The notes under the pieces were generated by a model, which searched no databases, was not told where the DNA came from, and saw nothing but the letters and a program-made list of their open reading frames with translations. From the NCBI RefSeq assembly GCF_900114035.1, contig NZ_FORP01000008.1, forward strand, positions 62,001-126,000: DNA of 64,000 nt. The letters are read 5' to 3'. Source of the stretch: Amycolatopsis sacchari. GTDB taxonomy: Bacteria; Actinomycetota; Actinomycetes; Mycobacteriales; Pseudonocardiaceae. Each line of letters opens with the position of its first letter. The first letter of the stretch is position 1. Below, in pieces: positions 58,998 through 63,391 of the stretch. The translations under genes were made by a program, and so were the position numbers.

Positions 58998-59013
58998 GGG
59001 GCGGCACCGGCCG

Positions 59014-60474
59014 TCAGAAGGGCCAGTTCGCGTTCCGACCGGCCTCGAGCAACGCGATCATCCCGAAGGACGCGTCGTTGAGCCCGGCGAACGTGTGGCT
59101 CCGCCCGGTGCCGCTGGGCGCGTGCCCGTAGCGGTACCCGGCCAGGTTCCACGTGTACATCGGAACTCCCGCCTGGACCGGGCCGTCGGCCGCCTGCTCG
59201 TCGGTCAGGACGACGATCCGGTCGTGCCGCCGGTAGTGCCGTTCCACGGCGGCAGTGGTGTACGTGCCGCCGTTGAGGAAGTACCCCGACGACTGCCACC
59301 GGTCCACCGCCCGCAGCAGGTTTTCCCCGCGCCGCAGGGAAAAGACCTTGCTGTCGTGCGAGTAGGAGACGACGTCGGCCCGGTCGCACGCCTGTGCCAG
59401 CGCGAGACCGAACATCCTCGCCGCGTTCCACCGGCGGAGCGTGCCGTCCCGGGAGAACCGGCTCGTCATGCTGCCGCTCGTGTCGATCAGGATCAGCGTC
59501 CGCCCCGAGAGCCGTGGCACGCCGCGCAGGGAGTGCTGCAACGCCTGCTCGAGCGGGCCCTTCCAGCGGTCGTGCGCGGCGGTGCGGTAGGCCGACAGGA
59601 ACCGCAACGGCAGCTGGCGGCTCGTCCGCACGGCTTCGGGGTCCGACAGCTCGGCCGCCACCCGGGTGGCGACCTCGTCGCTGATCCCGGCCTCGTCGAA
59701 GTTGCGCAGGTTCCGCAGCTTCGCCATGTAGCCCATGGACGGGACGAGCGCCTCCCACGCGGCAGCCGTGATCGGCCCCTGCAGCCAGCCCGCGACCGAC
59801 TCCCACGTCATGCCCGCCTCCGCCAGCGCCACCGGGGCCACCCGCCGCTGCCCGGCGGGCAGTGACGTGAGGCGCCGGCGAGCGGTGAGCGTGCCCAGCG
59901 ACGTGGGGAGGTCGCTCCCGCGGTCGCGGCGGGCGTCGAGGATGTGCTGGAAACAGGTCGGCCTGCCAAGCGGTGCCTGCCTTGGGGTGCACCAGTTCCA
60001 GGACGTCCGCGAACCGGATCGCCCGCGCCGCGGAGTCCCACTTCAGGTAGGCGCGCTCGGTGTACAAACGCTCACGGCGTCCGCGATCCCCCGCTTGACG
60101 GGCTTCGGGATCGCGCGACCGTGTGCGGCGAACCAGTAGCCGAGCAGCTCACCGGGTTCGTCCGCGCGCTGCAGCACCGACGACACGACGGAACGGGAGA
60201 GCACGTGCGCACCCACGGACAGTCGCGCGTGGGCGAACTCTGCCGCACCGACGAGTGCGGCGGTGCGGAAGTTCGCCTCGGACCGCAGCCAGCGCAGGAA
60301 CCGAACTGTCCACTCTGGATCGTCGAGGGTCGTTTCCCGGACCAGAGCGGTGAACCGGTTGTCGCGTTCTCGAGCGGACTCGTAGAAGGCGTCTTCACCG
60401 GCCAGGCGCCAGAAGTAACCCTCACCTGCGCACCGGTTCAGCGGGCCGCGGCTGGACCAATGTAGAGAAACCAC
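59014..60474 (-). pseudogene. TROVE-domain (Ro60-like) RNA-binding protein gene with two frameshifts
   Basis: Reads as one TROVE protein only if two indels are bridged. The 5' part runs from FTALVRETTLDDPEWTVRFL to YWFAAHGRAIPKPVKRGIAD, then drops one base near 60087. The middle part (ERAYLKWDSAARAIRFADVL, ELVHPKAGTAWQ) continues in the second frame to ADLF, where an extra T (CTGTTTCCAG) restores the first frame for QHILDARRDRG onward. The 3' part has SMGYMAKLRNLRNFDEAGIS and a vWA domain with DTSGSM (MIDAS). The expected ~30 N-terminal residues of the family are not recognisable. Ro proteins bind Y-like RNAs and misfolded RNA. Confidence 0.75.
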
Positions 60475-60631: not shown

Positions 60632-61756
60632 TTGCCAGCAAGAACTTTGGCGGTCTGCGCGACCGCACTCGCCCTGGCCATGTCGGCCGTGACACCGGCG
60701 TTCGCGGTGTCCGGTGGACAGCCGGTGTCCGATCCGGCGACCGCGCCCTGGATGGCGACGATCGCCAGGAAGGGCACCGCGCCGCTGGTCCAGCGGGAAT
60801 TGTGCGGCGGTGTGCTGATCGCGCCCGACCGGATCGCCACGGCGGCGCACTGCCTCGACCACACCGATCCGACCAACCTGGAGGTGCACGTCGGCGGCGG
60901 CACGCTGTCCACCGACCCCGGGCGCATCGTGCCCATGAAGGGGTTCACCACGCACCCCGGCTACCGGTTGATCTCCCCGCCCGGCAGCCCGGGCGACTTC
61001 GCCGGCTCGGCAGCGGCCGATGACGCCGCCATCATCGAGCTGGCGCGGCCGGTCCGGGGCGTGCCGGTACTGCCGGTCGCCCGGCACACCCCCGCGCCAG
61101 GCACGCCGGTCGCCGTCTTCGGCCACGGTCAGACCGGGCCCTACGACCCGCAGAACCCGTCGAGTTCCTACGGTGATGCGCTCAACGTCGGCAGGATGAG
61201 CGTCCTGGACCACGCGAGCTGCGACGAGCAACTCGCCGGGGTGGTCGACGCCGCCTCGGTGGTGTGTGCGCAGGCCGCGGGGACGACCATCTGTGCGGGC
61301 GACAGCGGCGGTCCCCTGGTCGAATACGGGGACGAAGGCCCGGCACTGGTCGGGCTGACCAGCTTCGGTGGCGAAGTGCGGAGCAAGCAGTGCGGGCAGG
61401 ACGCTCCCGGTGGCTTCGCCGAGGCCGCCAAACTGCGTTCGTTCCTCACCCAGCGGCATCCGGTGCTCGCGCCGAGGCCGACCGGCGAACCCGCCATCAC
61501 CGGCACGAAGGCGCCCGGCTCCACGCTGACCTGCCAAGCGGCCGGGTGGGCCGGCCGCGCCCCCGACTCGGTGACGTACACCTGGGATGAGGGGCTGGTC
61601 GACTCCACCGGCTTCGTCACCTACGTGCCGATCAAGGGCGCTCCCCTGACGCCCACGCTCGCCCTGAACGCGGATCTCGCCTCCCACAGCCTGTTGTGCG
61701 TGCTGGTCGCGCAGACCCGCGGTGGCGTCGTGGAACTGGTGTCCGACCCGCGGTAA
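60632..61756 (+). CDS. Secreted trypsin-like serine protease (S1)
   Basis: A 374-residue exported protease: signal peptide (ALALAMSAVTPAFA, cleavage after AFA), then VSGGQPVSDPATAPWMATIA. The triad is visible as His in IATAAHCLD, Asp in ADDAAIIEL and Ser in CAGDSGGPL. The C-terminal ~100 residues (GEPAITGTKAPGSTLTCQAAG...) form an Ig-like/adhesion-type extension. TTG start with AGGAGG seven bases upstream. A hairpin follows the stop. Confidence 0.92.
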   Translation: MPARTLAVCATALALAMSAVTPAFAVSGGQPVSDPATAPWMATIARKGTAPLVQRELCGGVLIAPDRIATAAHCLDHTDPTNLEVHVGGGTLSTDPGRIVPMKGFTTHPGYRLISPPGSPGDFAGSAAADDAAIIELARPVRGVPVLPVARHTPAPGTPVAVFGHGQTGPYDPQNPSSSYGDALNVGRMSVLDHASCDEQLAGVVDAASVVCAQAAGTTICAGDSGGPLVEYGDEGPALVGLTSFGGEVRSKQCGQDAPGGFAEAAKLRSFLTQRHPVLAPRPTGEPAITGTKAPGSTLTCQAAGWAGRAPDSVTYTWDEGLVDSTGFVTYVPIKGAPLTPTLALNADLASHSLLCVLVAQTRGGVVELVSDPR

Positions 61757-61758
61757 GC

Positions 61759-61822
61759 CCCACAAAAAGAACCACTGTTCTGCTAGTATCGAGACAAGCA
61801 GAACAGCGGTTCTTTTTGTGGG
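61759..61822. promoter_or_regulatory. Long inverted repeat: protease terminator and TetR operator/promoter
   Basis: 26-bp arms (61759-61784 and 61797-61822) with one mismatch and a 12-bp spacer. Each arm holds a smaller dyad AGAAC-N4-GTTCT, giving two operator copies facing each other. A -10-like TAGTAT (61784-61789) lies in the centre, and the TetR ribosome site GGGAGG directly follows. It can act both as terminator of the protease gene and as repressor-covered promoter of the TetR operon. Confidence 0.75.
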
Positions 61823-61829
61823 AGGTGTG

Positions 61830-62378
61830 ATGCCCCGGCTCACCGATGCGCGCAAGGAGCTCCGACGTGCGCAGATCACCGAGGCGGCGGTGCGGTGCTT
61901 CGGTCGCAACGGTTTGGAGCGGACGTCGATCACGGACATCACGGCCGAGTCCGGGCTGTCCACCGGGTCGATCTACGCGCACTTCCGCAACAAGGCCGAA
62001 ATCGTGCAGGCCACGGCCCGCGCGACGCTGGCCCAGCGCGCGGAGGTGCTCGGCGAGTACGCCCGGGACGACAACCCGCCAGACCCCGACGAACTCCTCG
62101 CCCGCATGACCTCGGTCATCGATCCGGTCGAGGCCAGGTTCGGGGTGCAGATCTGGGGCGAGGCGACGACCAACCCCGCCATCGGCGCCATCGTCGTGGA
62201 CATGATCGACCGGCTGCGGGCGATGGTGCGTGACTGCGTGGCGTCGTGGCTGGTCAAAGCCGAAGGCCACGAGCCTGCCGAGGCGCGGGAAAAGGCCGCG
62301 CCCATCGCGCACCGGGTGCTGGCGCTCTACCTCGCTGAACTGCTCCGCATTGCCCTGCCAGGTGAAGGAGAACTGTGA
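61830..62378 (+). CDS. TetR-family transcriptional regulator
   Basis: A 182-residue regulator: LRRAQITEAAVRCFGRNGLE, then ITAESGLSTGSIYAHFRNKA (helix-turn-helix, ~10-50), then a helical ligand domain. ATG 61830 follows GGGAGG. Its stop overlaps the quinone reductase GTG. Very likely autoregulated by the inverted repeat immediately upstream, controlling the oxidoreductase and hydrolase. Confidence 0.88.
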   Translation: MPRLTDARKELRRAQITEAAVRCFGRNGLERTSITDITAESGLSTGSIYAHFRNKAEIVQATARATLAQRAEVLGEYARDDNPPDPDELLARMTSVIDPVEARFGVQIWGEATTNPAIGAIVVDMIDRLRAMVRDCVASWLVKAEGHEPAEAREKAAPIAHRVLALYLAELLRIALPGEGEL

Positions 62379-63391
62379 AGACCATCGTCTACCGCGACAA
62401 CGGCGGCCCCGAAGTCCTCGAACTCGTCGAGCGCGATGTGCCCGCACCCGGCGCCGGGGAGGTCCGCGTCCGGGTCGCCGTGTCCGGCGTGAACCCGACC
62501 GATGTGCAGGCCCGCGCGGGAATGGGGCACGCCAAGAACTTCCCGGAGATCACCCCGCACCACGACGGTGCGGGCACGATCGACGCCGTCGGCGAGGGCG
62601 TCGATCCGGGGCGGGTGGGCCAGCGGGTGTGGCTGTTCATGGCCGCTGCCGGACGGCCTGCGGGCACCGCTGCCGAGTACACCGTCGTGCCCGCCGAGCG
62701 GGCCGTGCCGCTGCCCGACGACGCCGGGTTCGACGTCGGCGCCGCGCTCGGGGTCCCCGCCCTCACCGCGCACCGCGCGCTCACCGTCGCCGAGGACGGG
62801 CCGCGCCGGCTGGCGCCCGGTGCGCTCAAGGACAAGGTCGTGCTCGCCGCGGGCGGGGCCGGTGCGGTCGGGCACGCCGTGATCCAGCTCGCGCGCTGGG
62901 CGGGCGCGACCGTGATCAGCACCGTCAGCAGCCCCGGGAAGGCCCGCTTGGCCGCCGCCGCGGGCGCCCACCACGTCGTCAACTACCGCGAAGGCGACGC
63001 CGCCGCCGCGATCCGCGAGATCGCGCCCGACGGGGTGGACGTCATCGCCGAGGTCGCGCTCGGCGCGAACCTCGAACTCGACCTGTCGGTGCTCCGCTTC
63101 CGTGGCACGCTTTCCGTCTACGCCAACCAAGGCGGTGTCCCGGTCGAGCTCGACGTACGCCGCACGATGGTGCTGAACACCCGCTTCCAGTTCCTGGTGC
63201 TCTACACGGCCGGACCGGAGGTGCTCAACGCCGCCATCGAGGACGTCACCGCGGCCGTCGCCGACGGTGCCCTGCCCGTCGGCGAGGACCACGGTCTGCC
63301 CCTGCTGCGCTTCCCGCTCGACCGCGCGGCGGACGCGTACCGGGCCGTCGAAAGCGGTGCCGTCGGCAAAGTCCTGGTGGACCTCCCGTGA
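62375..63391 (+). CDS. Zinc-independent MDR-type quinone/enoyl reductase
   Basis: A 338-residue medium-chain reductase: N-terminal GroES-like domain (VRVAVSGVNPTDVQARAG) without zinc ligands, then a Rossmann domain with VLAAGGAGAVGHAVIQLARW and KARLAAAAGAHHVVNYRE. Typical NADPH-dependent quinone oxidoreductase (QorA/zeta-crystallin type). GTGA overlaps on both sides put it in the TetR operon. Confidence 0.9.
   Translation: MKTIVYRDNGGPEVLELVERDVPAPGAGEVRVRVAVSGVNPTDVQARAGMGHAKNFPEITPHHDGAGTIDAVGEGVDPGRVGQRVWLFMAAAGRPAGTAAEYTVVPAERAVPLPDDAGFDVGAALGVPALTAHRALTVAEDGPRRLAPGALKDKVVLAAGGAGAVGHAVIQLARWAGATVISTVSSPGKARLAAAAGAHHVVNYREGDAAAAIREIAPDGVDVIAEVALGANLELDLSVLRFRGTLSVYANQGGVPVELDVRRTMVLNTRFQFLVLYTAGPEVLNAAIEDVTAAVADGALPVGEDHGLPLLRFPLDRAADAYRAVESGAVGKVLVDLP

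Follow-up and report, generated by a model that had tools for sequence, protein, structure and literature searches.

A conserved pair of putative TetR operators within a long inverted repeat upstream of a tetR–reductase operon in Amycolatopsis sacchari

TetR-family repressors of the TtgR, AcrR and QacR type have long operators that may take two dimers, and the neighbouring genes there encode efflux pumps, whereas reductases lie beside the tetR gene described here. In Tn10, the repressor binds two operators, tetO1 and tetO2, independently of each other and controls its own gene together with a neighbour (PMC11686294). BkaR of mycobacteria is an autoregulated TetR repressor with a 24-bp palindromic motif that has an N4 centre, occurs twice in the promoter region and is bound by a dimer (PMC3920632). 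Paired palindromic operators at TetR promoters are thus already known, and the locus that we describe is another member of that kind. It lies in a window of 64,000 nucleotides, the whole stretch of Amycolatopsis sacchari DNA that was analysed, and resembles the BkaR system in having a putatively autoregulated TetR and a pair of ≈24-bp palindromes with N4 centres (PMC3920632). It differs from it in that the BkaR motif is GTTA-N-T-N4-A-N-TAAC and the BkaR operon is a divergent one of branched-chain keto-acid genes; the available part of that report describes neither a mirror-matched hairpin nor an effect of the upstream gene (PMC3920632). With Tn10, the locus would share the use of two operators for a tetR gene and its neighbour, but in Tn10 that neighbour is the efflux gene tetA, the tetO2 site is 19 bp long, and the accessible portion of the source assigns no role to a hairpin (PMC11686294). 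What the present locus appears to add, suggestively, is a mirror effect tied to the neighbouring gene. Literature searches for a TetR regulator with an aldo-keto reductase and a quinone oxidoreductase returned no paper, and those for paired TetR operators and operator-terminators returned no title or abstract opening describing this system; either may still be in print.

The repeat fills nearly the whole gap between two co-directional genes. Upstream, a gene for a trypsin-like protease, recognized by its Pfam domain (60632–61756, plus strand), has a stop codon that ends 2 bp before the repeat. Downstream, tetR (61830–62378, plus strand) begins 7 bp past it and encodes a 182-aa protein with a TetR_N domain (PF00440, E = 3.1e-14, 52.9 bits vs. 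a cut-off of 24). The closest solved sequence is that of TtgR (2xdn, E = 3e-12), in a match that covers only residues 3–87, at the N-terminus. The tetR gene overlaps by GTGA with qor (62375–63391, plus strand), which encodes a zinc-type, quinone-oxidoreductase-like MDR enzyme, and qor overlaps by another GTGA with a gene for a β-lactamase-fold serine hydrolase (PF00144; 63388–64000, plus strand) that runs off the window. The serine hydrolase had no match in the examined stretches of the relatives described below (E 1e-6, >38% identity), and the protease had a single relative, 46% identical, among 10 congeners.

The inverted repeat is real. It spans 61759–61822 (no strand assigned), with 26-bp arms at 61759–61784 (CCCACAAAAAGAACCACTGTTCTGCT) and 61797–61822 (AGCAGAACAGCGGTTCTTTTTGTGGG) on either side of a 12-nt loop (AGTATCGAGACA). 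The arms are complementary at 25 of 26 positions, in agreement with the first-pass annotation, which had given 26-bp arms with one mismatch, and a repeat finder extended them to 32 nt at 91%. When 61741–61835 was folded as RNA, the z-score was −9.0 and none of 200 shuffles was equally stable, so the structure is not due to chance; the dG of the hairpin was −44.9. Against Rfam, the repeat gave only sub-threshold matches to microRNA hairpins (best E = 0.0022, 27 bits vs. a gathering score of 70), and across the whole window one tRNA was the only hit. A palindrome this long and nearly perfect, lying between genes, could also be a mobile element of the MITE or REP type. However, a search of the 7.59-Mb genome with 61755–61830 on both strands found this one place only, and in the relatives the repeat precedes tetR, with divergent spacers; a mobile element was therefore rejected for this genome, and we regard that origin as exceedingly improbable. 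The shorter sequence AGAACNNNNGTTCT was found at three places in the genome, two of them within this repeat (control, 0).

Each half of the repeat carries a 24-bp pseudo-palindrome that we take as a TetR operator (neither is assigned to a strand): a left site, CAAAAAGAAC-CACT-GTTCTGCTAG, at 61763–61786, and a right site, CAAGCAGAAC-AGCG-GTTCTTTTTG, at 61795–61818. The AGAAC-N4-GTTCT cores previously noted in each arm were found at 61768–61781 and 61800–61813, and the central TAGTAT element was found at 61784–61789, with a TG ahead of it at 61781–61782. Together, these form a predicted extended −10 of the tetR promoter, TGC-TAGTAT (61781–61789, plus strand), which touches the left operator; TG-Y-TAG is kept in most of the promoters compared. 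The predicted promoter has no good −35, and a consensus promoter scan that requires a −35 found none at tetR. Transcription probably starts near 61795–61797, in which case the left operator would extend over the −35/−10 spacer into the first bases of the −10, while the right operator would lie at or just past the start. The Shine–Dalgarno sequence of tetR, GGGAGGTG (61820–61827, plus strand), contributes its first three G to the last pairs of the folded hairpin stem.

Relatives of the locus were collected by protein and DNA searches. A protein-based scan of genome contigs gave 22 loci, 16 of which (L005–L020) were close, with TetR proteins 71–89% identical across the aligned portion; the remaining six were distant (22–34%) and were not used. 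DNA searches gave 13 matches among 392 genomes of what is evidently the genus Streptomyces and seven in 376 genomes of the own family, the own genome included; both counts are lower bounds, with two candidates scored per genome. A class-wide DNA search, likewise a lower bound with two candidates scored per genome, found the own copy only among 394 genomes, and so did a phylum-wide protein search at E 1e-35 among 396 genomes with eight candidates scored in each. A plasmid search with the TetR protein gave no match at E 1e-40. After removal of duplicates, the set held 31 distinct promoters, i.e., the window and 30 relatives, mostly from Streptomyces and Pseudonocardiaceae. Dropped as exact duplicates were L062, L063, L065, L069, L070, L074, L075 and L079; L068 was a reverse-strand duplicate of L031, and L027–L029 coincided with loci already in the set. 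The tree was built from 28 rows, excluding L020, L061 and L081, in which genes were cut by a contig end or had no matching start.

The same operator pair, two ≈24-bp pseudo-palindromes around an extended −10, was present at the tetR promoter in all 31 loci, and the comparison across relatives thus supports the earlier proposal of a double TetR operator at this position. The left sites have a consensus close to CAAAnAGAAY-N4-RTTCTGYTAG and the right sites one close to CAAGCAGAAY-N4-RTTCTTTTTG, both near a single ideal palindrome, CAAACAGAAC-N4-GTTCTGTTTG. With a double-site consensus derived from the very sequences scored, the 31 promoters reached 30–38 of 39, compared to at most 20 for other stretches from these loci (n = 93) and at most 21 for shuffles (n = 93). 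Both AGAAC-N4-GTTCT cores were perfect only in the window and L019 among the first 17 promoters.

The distance between the operator centres was 32 bp in eight promoters, 33 bp in 11, 34 bp in eight, 35 bp in one and 36 bp in three. In the window it is 32 bp, about three turns of the helix. This would suit the looped or cooperative operator that the first-pass annotation had suggested, in a form that is strictly phased and needs both sites on one face of the DNA. A length of 32 bp is short for an ordinary DNA loop. Over the 31 promoters, the range of 32–36 bp corresponds to about 140 degrees of twist end to end, and because the spacing varies by up to 4 bp, strict helical phasing is disfavoured; we consider this form of the double operator improbable.

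A strict one-site pattern, allowing at most one mismatch, was then applied to 16 genomes (the own genome and 15 relatives) and gave 33 rows. Thirty were in the tetR promoter, two were in a second promoter copy at a contig end of genome G810, and one was a lone site elsewhere, in genome G805; the reversed-pattern control gave three. At this stringency, weaker sites elsewhere may have been missed. The core GAAC-N4-GTTC also fits the consensus of Gram-positive LexA boxes, GAAC-N4-GTTC or CGAAC-N4-GTTCG, raising the alternative that the AGAAC-N4-GTTCT sites are SOS boxes. However, CGAAC-N4-GTTCG makes up a separate and abundant set in the genome (36 places vs. five for the reversed pattern), and the tetR sites have long conserved A/T flanks, CAAA and TTTG. 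Furthermore, the right-hand sites read ATTCT rather than GTTCT in 22 of 32 rows (one row being a duplicate), or about two thirds, and the strict pattern follows tetR. On the strength of the flanks, the ATTCT half-sites and the distinct CGAAC set, a LexA/SOS box was rejected, and we hold it to be very improbable. The CGAAC-N4-GTTCG sites of the window genome are possibly SOS boxes; two sites of this type lie 34 bp apart on C20 of genome G000.

Judging from these alignments, it is highly probable that the conserved object is the double operator. The natural reading is that the TetR protein most likely acts locally, repressing its own small reductase operon. An aldo/keto reductase gene (PF00248) was found downstream of tetR in 24 of the 30 relatives, and 20 of these also had a qor match, in stretches that differ in length. 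In two of the remaining four (L030 and L031) the examined stretch ends before qor would start, while L073 and L076 have the reductase and no qor in a stretch that is long enough. In L005 and L018, as in the window, qor is present but the aldo/keto reductase is not. L080 gave only poor reductase matches, L081 has neither reductase nor qor, and in L020 and L061 the downstream region is cut by contig ends. The relatives' qor products were 79–88% identical to that of the window, except in L010 and L019, where the matches were partial (68–74%).

According to the proposed mechanism, TetR would repress its own operon through the double operator, i.e., tetR-qor in the window and tetR-aldo/keto reductase-qor in 20 of the 30 relatives, in the stretches as examined. 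A TetR dimer would bind each site, and repressor on either one would be expected to hinder initiation, with the left-site dimer blocking the polymerase and the right-site dimer adding to the repression. TetR would be released by a ligand, possibly a quinone or an electrophilic carbonyl on which the reductases act. From the comparison, an operator and a small regulon can be predicted for an operon of tetR, aldo/keto reductase and quinone reductase genes that occurs in several Actinomycetota families, and this regulon makes the TetR a candidate sensor of electrophilic or carbonyl compounds.

The lowest double-site score, 30, was that of L081, whose TetR is 48% identical, suggesting that the double-operator design may predate this ortholog group. 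The L081 pair (genome G1040, C4) is divergent, reading CAAACAGAGC-N4-ACTCTTTTTG and CAAACGGAGC-N4-GTTCTGTTTG, with AGAGC and GGAGC half-sites that offer a starting point for tracing shifts in operator specificity.

Two adjacent palindromes automatically form an inverted repeat, and the double operator therefore accounts for most, but not all, of the long hairpin observed. Over the 31 loci, the two arms of the same locus mirrored each other at 530 of 744 positions, compared to 499.9 ± 6.7 after permutation, a value that none of 20,000 permutations equalled, and the N4 spacers did so at 52 of 124 positions, compared to 39.8 ± 4.5 (p = 0.005). The mirror match was 22/24 in the window and 23/24 in L007. 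A match of at least 22/24 was reached by two of the 31 natural pairs and by none of 930 swapped operator pairs, and one of at least 20/24 by four natural and 30 swapped pairs. The arrangement had been called unusual for TetR genes; this applies to the near-perfect mirror, seen at 22/24 or better in only these two promoters, but not to paired operators as such, which are familiar from tetO1/tetO2 and BkaR.

Part of the mirror excess reflects relatedness between the loci. A same-orientation control was also slightly raised (482 vs. 468.9 ± 6.5, p = 0.025), and the spacer excess reached only p = 0.035 (45 vs. 34.7 ± 5.2) when the sites were simulated along the tetR tree (28 loci), from which we conclude that relatedness inflates the excess. 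For the whole sites, the same simulation gave 478 vs. 430 ± 19 (p = 0.0013), but this null mean is probably too low, since near-invariant columns draw a random root, and the spacer value is to be preferred. When the window, L007 and L016 were left out, the mirror signal persisted, with a count of 464 vs. 443.5 ± 6.3 (p = 0.00085), with p = 0.037 for the spacers. In the first 20 promoters alone, the spacer excess was not significant (31/80 vs. 25.9 ± 3.5, p = 0.10).

One explanation is that the locus holds an operator pair and nothing more: the hairpin itself would be functionless, and the surplus of mirrored positions would stem from drift or from homogenization of a quasi-palindrome by template switching as the DNA is replicated. 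This competes with a terminator function of the hairpin, described below, and leaves the operator core as it is. In its favour, what is common to all 31 loci is the operators and not the arm-to-arm pairing, and in most loci the N4 spacers differ between the arms and the fold is much weaker than that of the window. It is known that template switching can make inverted repeats perfect (PMC8794818, PMC7202029), and in L007 one arm deviates from the operator consensus and the opposite arm carries the mirror image of this deviation, the pattern expected of a template switch. Template-switched quasi-palindromes resemble the window in that imperfect arms have become mutual mirrors; as far as the available text goes, they were described for RNA genes, whereas here the process is only surmised for an operator pair (PMC8794818). 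Homogenization alone, however, does not predict that the mirror match should depend on a close co-directional upstream gene. We give this explanation a little less than an even chance.

Such a dependence was observed. In the loci with the best mirrors, L007, the window and L016, a co-directional gene ends 69, 6 and 14 bp, respectively, from the left operator. In ten of the 31 loci, the end of a co-directional gene lies no more than 80 bp upstream, and their mean mirror match was 19.1 of 24, compared to 16.1 in the other 21 (p = 0.001). The folding energies under the same split were −31.8 and −23.3 kcal/mol, respectively (p = 0.007). The 80-bp cut-off was picked after the data had been seen; at 50, 200 and 500 bp, the p-values were 0.009, 0.015 and 0.053 for the mirror match and 0.017, 0.16 and 0.11 for dG. 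Phylogenetic regression (PGLS) on 28 loci retained the mirror association (p = 0.015–0.020), while that of dG varied with the phylogenetic weighting (p = 0.003, or p = 0.20 at full weight). There were only three independent pairs, too few for a sign test, and in these the mirror match mostly went in the expected direction or was equal. L014, L015 and L017 are exceptions, with a close co-directional gene and a mirror match of only 17/24, as are L019 (20/24) and L081 (19/24), for which no such gene was called. Among the ten close upstream genes, only those of L007 and L016 have matching proteins; Pfam domains were found in the window protease and in eight of the other nine, the domain in L015 being partial, and none was found in the product of L020. 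The upstream genes were called by a custom codon model, with no call for L008 and an unreadable result for L081.

The association hints at a terminator or insulator role for the hairpin in a subset of the loci, including the window. Because the side-by-side palindromes make an inverted repeat, RNA reading through from the protease gene can fold across both sites, and would then form the 26-bp stem with its one mismatch and a U run at its foot. Such a hairpin could end the protease transcript and insulate tetR. The mRNA of tetR itself cannot form the hairpin, since it would start between the arms; RNA from this start showed no unusual structure (z = +1.05). The read-through fold would also partly cover the ribosome-binding site of tetR. 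The idea of a terminator for the protease, already raised in the first-pass annotation, is in keeping with the long stable hairpin, with the T5 run at the foot of its stem and with the higher mirror match near co-directional genes. It found no support in a formal terminator scan, which gave none at the repeat but admits only loops of 3–8 nt and so excludes a hairpin with a 12-nt loop; in addition, the T run forms pairs with a run of A. On this evidence, termination of the protease transcript by the hairpin, with insulation of tetR, is a tentative proposal that falls short of probable.

The mirror match may have arisen by selection, by template switching, or by both. In a more far-reaching scenario, operator pairs would be the raw material for terminators: next to a close co-directional gene, template switching and selection would make the arms mirror each other, and the 64-bp element would serve as the double operator and promoter of tetR, as a terminator, and as a mask over the ribosome-binding site in read-through RNA. 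Taken as a whole, we find this scenario rather unlikely. If the association with the upstream gene holds in a larger set, these loci would represent a natural series showing how its surroundings convert a regulatory DNA repeat into an RNA terminator.

Within the genus, only one of 18 congeners had a match at E 1e-20, and this was merely 33% identical, so the tetR operon looks either horizontally moved or patchily lost. One Streptomyces genome (G810) has two double operators and two tetR starts, both truncated where their contigs end (L061, at C19:152–208, and L020, at the end of C26). The qor genes of L010 and L019, which match only in parts (residues 70–221 in two pieces and residues 1–74, respectively), may be broken. 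Further upstream in the window, a TROVE/vWA (Ro60-like) gene on the minus strand (59011–60474), beside which Rfam found no family at gathering score, seems to span two frames. It runs in frame 1 to a stop after residue 143, continues for a short stretch in another frame (RAYLKWDSAARAIRFADVLELVHPKAG) and then returns to frame 1; the split seems to reflect either a sequencing error or a decayed gene.
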